A DNA stretch of 38,557 nt from Candidatus Shapirobacteria bacterium. Lineage in GTDB: Bacteria > Patescibacteriota > Microgenomatia > UBA12405 > UBA6130. Shown here piece by piece: positions 4,483-22,944 of the stretch (the first letter of the stretch is position 1; each line of letters begins with the position of its first letter). The translations under genes and the position numbers were made by a program. The stretch is taken from NCBI GenBank assembly GCA_027039485.1, contig JALWDZ010000013.1, forward strand, positions 1-38,557, read 5' to 3'. Below the pieces are notes generated by a model, which saw only the letters and a list, made by a program, of their open reading frames with translations, ran no database searches and had not been told where the DNA came from.

Positions 4483-4557
4483 TGGCTCCGGCGGGAGGAT
4501 TCGAACCTCCAACCTCGGACTTAACAGGTCCTCGCGCTACCGTTGCGCCACGCCGGA
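4483..4557 (-). tRNA. tRNA-Asn (GTT)
   Basis: Full cloverleaf: TCCGGCG acceptor/CGCCGGA, anticodon loop CTGTTAA, T-loop TTCGAAT, encoded GCCA 3' end. Confidence 0.95.
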
Positions 4558-4797
4558 AAGCTGCTTTAAAAACTCTCTTCCTCGGTAACTTTTTAACTCT
4601 TTCTCCCGTTTTAACGCCTCACTGCGTGTTAAAAATTCCTCCTTATATATAAGCTCCCATTTTCCGCTAAATTTTGCTGTAAAACTTTTTTTAAATGTTC
4701 TCTGATTATGTAATTTTAATCTTTGTTCTATATCGCACGTCTGGCCAATATATATTTTATTATACTCTCGATTAATGATAGCGTAAACAAAAAACAT
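4537..4797 (-). CDS. GIY-YIG endonuclease domain protein
   Basis: MFFVYAIINREYNKIYIGQTCDIEQRLKLHN...; last residues LSGVAQR* are encoded by the tRNA-Asn 5' part. Confidence 0.9.
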   Translation of the reverse strand: MFFVYAIINREYNKIYIGQTCDIEQRLKLHNQRTFKKSFTAKFSGKWELIYKEEFLTRSEALKREKELKSYRGREFLKQLSGVAQR

Positions 4798-4805
4798 GTT
4801 TTTGC

Positions 4806-4852
4806 TCCTCGCGCACCTCCGCCGGCTGGCGGAGCGCCACGCCGGAAAGCTG
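4806..4852 (-). pseudogene. Partial tRNA-Asn 5' fragment interrupted by 16-bp palindrome
   Basis: tcctcgcgc-acc-[tccgccggctggcgga]-gcgccacgccggaaagctg versus tRNA tcctcgcgctaccgttgcgccacgccggaaagctg (4529-4563). Confidence 0.88.
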
Positions 4853-21053: not shown

Positions 21054-21105
21054 TATAATAAGCTACCGGAGAGGTGCCGGAGCGGACGAACGGGCACGAC
21101 CCGAA
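21054..21105 (+). pseudogene. tRNA-Ser-like 5' fragment preceded by TATAAT
   Basis: tataataagctacc-ggagaggtgccggagcggacgaacgggcacgac; acceptor GGAGAGG and D-arm present, no matching anticodon/T-arm follows. Confidence 0.65.
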
Positions 21106-21164
21106 GGGTACCCGTTGGGTCCTGGAGAGCGAGCTAGAGAGCAAACTGAAAAGTGAGAAAATAA

Positions 21165-21251
21165 GGAGAGGTGGCAGAGTGGCCGAATGCGCGGCTTTGG
21201 AGAAGCCGTATAGTCGCAAGACTATCGTGGGTTCGAATCCCACCCTCTCCG
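21165..21251 (+). tRNA. tRNA-Ser (GGA)
   Basis: GGAGAGG/CCTCTCC acceptor, anticodon loop TTGGAGA, long variable arm tagtcgcaagacta, T-loop TTCGAAT. Confidence 0.95.
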
Positions 21252-21404
21252 CCTTCGCCAAGGCTTCGGCGTGATAAATCCGCCTTCGCTAAAGCTACGG
21301 CGTGATAAATTCGCCATAAACATAAAACTACGGTGGAATAAATCCGCTTGTGCCTCTATATTCTCTGCTATTGATGGATCCTGGCCGGGCAATTTGTTAT
21401 CTTT

Positions 21405-21653
21405 ATGAAAATGTATTACGTGTACATTTTAAAGAAAAAAGGAGAATCTCGCTTCTACACTGGTTCTACTAACAACCTTAAACGTCGTTTAAAAGAGCAT
21501 GCTAAAAGCAAGCCTGATTATTTCCTCTATGCATACTTTGCCTTTCTAACGGCCGCTATGGCTCGCAAGTTCGAGAAATATCTAAAAACCGGATCTGGAC
21601 GTGCTTTCGCCAAAAAACATTTTCATATCGCGTCTAAGCCCTCCAGTCACTAG
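21405..21653 (+). CDS. GIY-YIG endonuclease domain protein
   Basis: MYYVYILKKKGESRFYTGSTNNLKRRLKEH... Confidence 0.93.
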   Translation: MKMYYVYILKKKGESRFYTGSTNNLKRRLKEHAKSKPDYFLYAYFAFLTAAMARKFEKYLKTGSGRAFAKKHFHIASKPSSH

Positions 21654-21660
21654 AGTGAAT

Positions 21661-21812
21661 TTTAGATCGACGAAGTTAAACGGAGTCGGTCTTTAGATCG
21701 ACGAAGTTAAACGGAGTCGGTCTTTAGATCGACGAAGTTAAACGGAGTCGGTCTTTAGATCGACGAAGTTAAACGGAGTCGGTCTTTAGATCGACGAAGT
21801 TAAACGGAGTCG
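21661..21812 (+). repeat. 31-bp perfect tandem repeat, 5 units (last truncated)
   Basis: tttagatcgacgaagttaaacggagtcggtc at 21661, 21692, 21723, 21754, 21785. Confidence 0.98.
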
Positions 21813-21814
21813 TC

Positions 21815-21830
21815 CCCACCCTCTCCGCCT
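21815..21830 (+). pseudogene. Duplicated 3' end of tRNA-Ser
   Basis: cccaccctctccgcct identical to 21239-21254; similarity continues into the following palindromic GCC..CGGCGTGATAAATCCGCC repeats. Confidence 0.8.
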
Positions 21831-21910
21831 ACGCTAAAGCTACGGCGTGATGAATCCGCCATAAACATAAAGCTTCGGCGTGATAAATCCGCCTTCATCT
21901 TCGCTAAAGC

Positions 21911-22633: not shown

Positions 22634-22647
22634 CGTCTTGCGCGAGA

Positions 22648-22760
22648 CTACTGCTGGTCGGTCTTCGGACTCGTCCCCAAGGGCATCACCGCTGCGGCAC
22701 AGTGGCGGATTCGCACCGCCTTCCCAAAACTAACGGCCTTCCCACCCCGATGTTACTCGG
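22648..22760 (-). promoter_or_regulatory. Cobalamin (B12) riboswitch-like element
   Basis: minus: GGGAAGGCGGTGCGAATCCGCCACTGTGCCGCAGCGGTGATGCCC...GAGTCCGAAGACCGACCAGCAG (core plus B12-box-like 3' end). Confidence 0.82.
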
Positions 22761-22944
22761 GACAGTGGCCAACCCAGCTAATCCATGATACAAAATCAAC
22801 GGGCTACAAGCAATAATCAGAACTTGGAACTCGGAACTCAGAGCTCGGAGCTCAGAACTTAGCTTGTCTGGAGCTAGGAACTAAGAGCTAGGAACTAGGT
22901 CATTGGAACTTAGAACTTGGAGCTTAGATCTTAGTATCTTAGGA

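Follow-up and report, generated by a model that had tools for sequence, protein, structure and literature searches.

The window, a contig of 38,557 nucleotides from a Candidatus Shapirobacteria bacterium (source genome G000; 695 kb, 27 contigs), carries a compact module in which an intact tRNA-Ser(GGA) gene is followed on the same strand by a single-domain GIY-YIG endonuclease ORF (Pfam PF01541, 3.1e-9), a tandem array and a stub of tRNA-Ser 3′ end. A companion GIY-YIG ORF lies at a tRNA-Asn(GTT) gene (Table 1). These are the only two GIY-YIG ORFs in the window, both at tRNA genes as originally predicted, and the whole genome holds five. The predicted positions of the TATAAT box, tRNA-Ser(GGA), ORF and array were all confirmed by the sequence, ARAGORN, Rfam and Pfam, and the 31-bp palindromic GCC..CGGCGTGATAAATCCGCC repeats were indeed present on both sides of the module. 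A cobalamin riboswitch (22639-22791, minus strand; Rfam, 49 bits) is also found in the window.

Table 1. Positions of the parts of the tRNA-Ser module and of its tRNA-Asn companion in the window
Feature	Position	Strand	Basis or remark
TATAAT, -10-like box of tRNA transcription unit	21054-21059	+	Sequence
5′ pseudo-tRNA-Ser stub: acceptor/D-arm 5′ part, then anticodon-loop-like TCCTGGAGA part	21068-21130	+	
Palindrome AACGGG...CCCGTT within stub D-arm	21089-21116	+	Sequence
tRNA-Ser(GGA), intact	21165-21251 (end also given 21253)	+	ARAGORN, Rfam
Direct repeat copy 1 = tRNA-Ser 3′ end, CCCACCCTCTCCGCCT	21239-21254	+	
31-bp palindromic repeats, TTCGCCAAGGCTTCGGCGTGATAAATCCGCC type	21248-21350	+	
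Single-domain GIY-YIG endonuclease ORF, 82 aa (alternative start 21411, 80 aa)	21405-21653	+	Pfam PF01541
Tandem array, 31 bp x 4.9 copies, 100% identical	21661-21812	+	Between ORF and 3′ stub
3′ tRNA-Ser stub = direct repeat copy 2, CCCACCCTCTCCGCCT	21815-21830	+	
Downstream palindromic repeats	21831-21895	+	Same as at 21248-21350
Companion module: tRNA-Asn(GTT), intact	4483-4557	-	ARAGORN, Rfam
Companion GIY-YIG ORF, 86 aa	4537-4797	-	Runs into tRNA-Asn 5′ end
5′ pseudo-tRNA-Asn stub	4804-4852	-	Interrupted by palindrome TCCGCCGGCTGGCGGA at 4818-4833
Exact 19-nt repeat of Asn module, GCGCCACGCCGGAAAGCTG	4834-4852 = 4545-4563	-	

The original prediction also held that partial tRNA copies bracket the tRNA-Ser module. 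This stands for the 3′ copy, where the two occurrences of CCCACCCTCTCCGCCT agree at 16/16 nt and score above all 100 shuffles. The 5′ stub is the weaker bracket: its nucleotides 1-23 score 13 against the adjoining tRNA-Ser, barely above the 12 reached by shuffles, because its similarity is to the 5′ sequence of another tRNA-Ser and its D-arm contains the palindrome. Inserts like this palindrome also occur in the Asn, Leu and Ile stubs. At the position of the 31-bp array, G002 has a single related stretch only.

The remaining GIY-YIG ORFs of the source genome lie at tRNA-Leu(CAA) (L001), in 23S rRNA (L003) and at L004, where the ORF is flanked by 14-17-bp inverted repeats. A random 250-bp ORF has a probability of 0.018 of lying within 300 bp of a same-strand tRNA, giving p = 6e-5 for the three out of five seen here. 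Among the 38 tRNAs of this genome that were tested, clear stubs were found only beside Asn, Leu, Ser and Ile(GAT), the other matches being few, short and low-scoring. Stubs thus accompany all three GIY-YIG tRNAs and one of ~35 others, tRNA-Ile, which bears an element in the sister species G001. At L054, L109 and window positions 4537-4557 the reading frame enters the tRNA, so that C-terminal residues are encoded by tRNA sequence. The L003 ORF (~1470-1780) occupies the loop of a 23S rRNA hairpin with arms CCCCGCCCTTTC and GAAAGGGCGGGG, and an ORF in G001 (L092, contig C60) is placed likewise.

PF01541 matches in 56 genomes, the source genome and relatives, yielded 115 loci with flanks, from MAG assemblies and non-independent by descent. 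A protein tree, which rests on few columns and has many unresolved forks, divides them into groups of 68, 34 and 13. The group of 68 includes all five proteins of the source genome, and two of its members lie in 23S rRNA. Members of the group of 34 are UPF0213-like, rarely near tRNAs and mostly between protein genes, and 12 of the 13 in the last group lie within interspersed palindromic repeats. A clade of ~96-aa GIY-YIG proteins is encoded inside GTCAT...ATGAC palindromes (L097, L098, L105, L108, L117, L122, L123, L127, L130, L133, L141 and L144) and looks like a gene-bearing form of these interspersed repeats.

A survey showing GIY-YIG ORFs to be no closer to tRNAs than other ORFs had been named as the result that would refute the prediction, and the outcome was the opposite: 56/68 in the first group lie at tRNAs, against 1.8% by chance and 1/30 for a control family, PIN-domain ORFs. 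The window tRNA-Ser locus is one of dozens of such tRNA loci in CPR bacteria. Several (L061, L075, L079, L106, L126) are held by G049, a single-contig genome of 1.02 Mb, which argues against an assembly artefact. In an independent set of 84 named GTDB loci, gathered with alignment A2 as query and biased towards one subgroup, 25 were near a tRNA, 25/25 on the same strand; the tRNA-adjacent loci came from Magasanikbacteria, Nomurabacteria, Levybacteria, Daviesbacteria, Doudnabacteria, Roizmanbacteria, Collierbacteria, Giovannonibacteria and other CPR taxa, with none among the records of this set assigned to phyla outside CPR. The broad alignment A1 held no conserved stretch.

The arrangement at the surveyed tRNA loci follows a simple rule. 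Where the tRNA is downstream of the ORF, the stub upstream is a 5′ part starting from nucleotide 1 (type A); where the tRNA is upstream, the stub downstream is a 3′ part (type B). tRNAs within 300 bp of the ORF are nearly always on the same strand, with one opposite-strand neighbour (L066). A stub scored above 40 shuffles at 38 of 59 tRNA-labelled loci, and about a third of the 59 had no detectable stub. Type B geometry resembles the attL/attR arrangement that a tyrosine-recombinase island would leave at a tRNA attachment site, with the GIY-YIG ORF as a passenger. However, the insertions measure about 0.3-0.6 kb with the GIY-YIG ORF as sole gene, no recombinase lies between the putative att copies, and the mirror-image type A with its 5′ stubs is equally common, which makes an island remnant barely credible. 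Target isotype clusters on the protein tree (33 changes versus 45.4 when shuffled; 0/200 shuffles), which suggests target specificity, and with 33 changes it also switches often.

An empty tRNA-Ser site in close relatives had been proposed as a check. In G001 the tRNA-Ser and its 5′ stub are kept (194 bp, 99%) without the ORF, and the flanks differ beyond about 5 nt, so that the locus counts as a copy lacking the ORF and falls short of an empty site in strict synteny. A clean empty site was found instead for tRNA-Leu, with synteny on both sides. There G001 matches G000 at 99% over 76 bp ending at tRNA nucleotide 24, and at 100% over the 246 bp running through tRNA-Leu, tRNA-Ser and tRNA-Gln. 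The source genome has a 313-bp insertion with a 24-nt flanking repeat, in the order tRNA nucleotides 1-24, palindrome CCTGCCTGCGAAGGCAGG, a copy of nucleotides 25-39 with one change, ORF and linker. At tRNA-Leu, G001 thus provides the otherwise identical, element-free allele expected of homing endonuclease genes and of the mORFs of fungal mitochondria. Retargeting between tRNA-Ser genes is seen in G002: there a homologous ORF with 73% aa identity lies after tRNA-Ser(CGA), and it is this local tRNA that the 3′ stub matches. The element has therefore switched tRNA genes, the repeat being locally derived.

The suggestion that one tRNA half is rebuilt on insertion holds for either half, with the qualification that the rebuilt part may be a plain duplication or a different sequence. 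Leu and Ser of the source genome show duplication without exchange. The tRNA-Ile gene is identical in G000 and G002 and differs at six positions in the element-bearing G001, the six forming three compensating T-stem pairs that are in essence shared by the downstream stubs. A tRNA half can thus be exchanged as well as duplicated, and G001 tRNA-Ile shows the hybrid gene with displaced native end that is typical of mORFs. The Ile locus of the source genome has a stub without an ORF; at the orthologous G001 locus, which shares the upstream sequence, the ORF is accompanied by three stubs, and one of them carries the same hairpin TCCCGACGTAACGTCGGGA. Recoding of the target as a means of protection was considered and rejected for Leu and Ser, whose G000 tRNAs are identical to ORF-less copies, and is seen for Ile only. 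Leu and Ser hence give no sign of the recoded, cleavage-resistant target that homing predicts.

Stubs are rich in hairpins. A perfect stem of at least 6 was present in 25/38 stubs versus 28/760 equal-length windows of the same loci, an 18-fold enrichment, and in the type B stubs of L080, L089, L095, L119 and L145 a palindrome replaces the anticodon stem-loop at its base. The stub palindromes belong to genome-wide repeats: the pattern TCCGCC-4-GGCGGA (TCCGCCNNNNGGCGGA) occurs at 39 sites in the source genome, against one for the reversed pattern. Copies of the interspersed palindrome TCCGCCRGCYGGCGGA (39 in the source genome) lie at window positions 62, 4398, 4818, 14267, 23061, 33668 and 37987.

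Breakpoints often fall near the anticodon or D loop, as they would if the element acted at the RNA level as a self-splicing intron of the tRNA, of group I or another kind, and GIY-YIG genes in group I introns are a textbook combination. However, both window loci contain a full-length tRNA without interruption, and Rfam gave no intron match in the window or at the G000 Leu, 23S and L004 loci, so the group I intron was rejected; a survey of CPR rRNA genes likewise found GIY-YIG insertions to be non-intron (PMC11270868). We regard a self-splicing element of any kind as very improbable. A single Rfam group I intron call was obtained at L111, a locus of the non-tRNA clade.

Proteins of the family have 78-100 aa and one domain. 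They pass the PF01541 cut-off and keep the GIY-YIG core with its catalytic Arg and Glu, with invariant Y5, Y16, G18, R26, H30, E55/62 and K59/66. In a profile search UPF0213 (1zg2) was matched at 1.1e-15, SLX1 at about 1e-7 and I-TevI barely. The AlphaFold model (pLDDT 88) has UPF0213 and SLX1 as its closest folds (Foldseek; modest E-values, 4.5e-3 and higher). Among solved structures, UPF0213/YhbQ-type proteins and the SLX1 nuclease domain are thus nearest in sequence and fold, with the catalytic residues conserved. SLX1 itself needs SLX4 and extra domains. The protein is an 80-aa catalytic domain only, with no recognisable sequence-specific DNA-binding domain. Homologous ORF pairs gave pN/pS of 0.2-0.5 (0.23 for the window Ser ORF and its G002 homologue), values that indicate purifying selection.

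Could tRNA genes simply be a passive hotspot, in which tandem tRNA duplication and decay create stubs, and small GIY-YIG ORFs merely gather at permissive, transcribed sites with no role for the nuclease? Stub-like tandem copies do exist without an ORF (G000 Ile and the Ser 5′ stub of G000, G001 and G002), and the interspersed palindromes are spread over the genome. However, stubs in the source genome occur only at the three GIY-YIG tRNAs and at Ile; the near-exclusive same-strand placement and fixed type A/B geometry would be unexpected; the ORF is under purifying selection; and PIN-domain ORFs have no such tRNA association. We therefore consider a passive hotspot unlikely.

Relatives away from tRNAs have ends of their own. 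A conserved 14-17-bp TIR, TTYACCCYGTTARATAA, bounds non-tRNA GIY-YIG ORFs at L004, L110 and the GTDB loci L185-L255. L004 (1470-1800) and two G001 copies (L110, G001:C17) occupy three different sites and have a common left end, ACCCTGTTAAATAA; their right end is likewise common, TTATYTAACAGGGT, wherever it can be seen, one G001 copy running off its contig. Conserved ends, ACCCYGTTARA or close variants, delimit an element of about 270-320 bp at 26 loci (L004 and 25 named homologues) from Thermodesulfobacteriota, Campylobacterota, Planctomycetota, Cloacimonadota, Fidelibacterota, Aminicenantota and many CPR lineages. The GIY-YIG gene is hence also the sole gene of a mobile element with its own ends. 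A simple TIR scan of the tRNA loci found mostly no TIR beyond tRNA complementarity. Solo TIR hairpins lacking an ORF (up to 30 bp inside) were absent from 380 genomes, and viral contigs held no TIR elements with a 200-230 bp interior, a weak test because this interior is shorter than that of most full elements.

Tentatively, and with some doubt, a single-domain GIY-YIG protein might be the sole mobility enzyme of tiny elements that live in inverted-repeat loops, whether between their own TIR TTYACCCYGTTARATAA, in interspersed palindromes, in an rRNA helix or in tRNA arms, the tRNA supplying the inverted repeat. If so, a structure-specific nuclease acting on hairpins would be an undescribed type of transposase, and tRNA targeting a speciality of Patescibacteria. 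The occurrence of TIR-bounded relatives in several phyla suggests that an extremely small type of transposon has been overlooked.

With UPF0213 and the repair nuclease SLX1 as the closest solved relatives and with long-term purifying selection, the nuclease might instead serve the host, in DNA repair or in cutting tRNA or other RNA, and be fixed beside tRNAs for co-expression without being selfish. Such a role is hard to reconcile with an ORF that is patchy between sister species (Leu, Ser, Ile) and jumps between isotypes, or with TIR-bounded relatives that are multi-copy and sit at different sites in the congeneric G000 and G001, and we think it improbable.

Taken together, these data favour, with a probability of about 0.73, the reading that the window tRNA-Ser module belongs to a family of minute mobile elements with a single-domain, SLX1/UPF0213-like GIY-YIG nuclease as sole gene, moved by break-and-repair and surviving where one tRNA half is rebuilt. 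The originally predicted family of tRNA-targeting GIY-YIG elements is supported, with the addition that relatives also occupy 23S rRNA or their own TIRs; cleavage and insertion are steps that we infer. The nuclease would cut the structured tRNA gene in an arm or loop, and repair from an element-bearing copy, or ectopic repair, would bring in the ORF along with a tRNA piece, either duplicated or serving as a replacement. Survivors would be only those alleles still holding one intact tRNA, so that the product would read old 5′ stub, ORF, intact tRNA in type A (window Asn, G000 Leu) and intact tRNA, ORF, old 3′ stub in type B (window Ser). Expression of the ORF and cost-free release of the tRNA would probably rely on the tRNA promoter and tRNA processing. 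The genome-wide palindromic repeat would usually break the stub further, in the D or anticodon arm, and may destroy the target site; alternatively to this part of the mechanism, the stub palindromes could be later hits.

A close parallel is offered by the mORFs of fungal mitochondria (Allomyces atp6; Glomus atp6, atp9, cox2 and nad3), where insertion of a free-standing gene for a homing endonuclease (LAGLIDADG, or in atp9 GIY-YIG) brings or duplicates a gene end, so that a hybrid gene forms and the native end is left as a downstream stub (PMC3630166). The window family shares the inserted nuclease gene, the duplicated or replaced gene end and the stub. However, mORFs affect mitochondrial protein genes and the C-terminal end only, whereas the window family lies in bacterial tRNA genes, affects either half, has a much smaller single-domain nuclease and carries palindromes in the stub. 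SegB of phages T4 and T6 is a free-standing GIY-YIG homing endonuclease encoded in phage tRNA clusters; its gene, often found with tRNAs across phages, shows microhomology of its 3′ end with the tRNA 5′ end, and tandem amplification (PMC13096335, citing Brok-Volchanskaya 2008). Adjacency to tRNA genes is common to both, but SegB is a phage gene, and the text consulted describes no intact tRNA with a half-tRNA stub (PMC13096335).

In CPR rRNA genes, GIY-YIG ORFs were reported only in non-intron insertions, mostly at the tops or bases of stem-loops, and were judged to stand outside homing, in a survey whose main text never mentions tRNA (PMC11270868). The 23S rRNA hairpin-loop ORFs of G000 contig C8 (L003) and G001 C60 resemble these insertions, and L003 lies inside an rRNA gene as they do, unlike the window module, which is at a tRNA. 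Host UPF0213-like genes differ from the window family in lying mostly between protein genes. REP palindromes partner the RAYT transposase, an HUH tyrosine enzyme. The window family likewise pairs one small nuclease gene with palindromic DNA, though with a GIY-YIG and not an HUH enzyme; that it mobilises the palindromes is conjecture. Full-text searches of the open PMC library turned up no earlier account of GIY-YIG elements residing at the cellular tRNA genes of CPR bacteria.

With this family, endonuclease elements that rebuild a gene half, as in fungal mitochondria, would extend to bacteria and to tRNA genes. It would account for a class of short 'GIY-YIG nuclease' genes and of pseudo-tRNAs passed over by annotation, and would show how hybrid tRNAs can arise. 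Moreover, it would provide testable enzymes of ~80 residues, with a genomic neighbourhood that reveals the target, a tRNA isotype or stem-loop.
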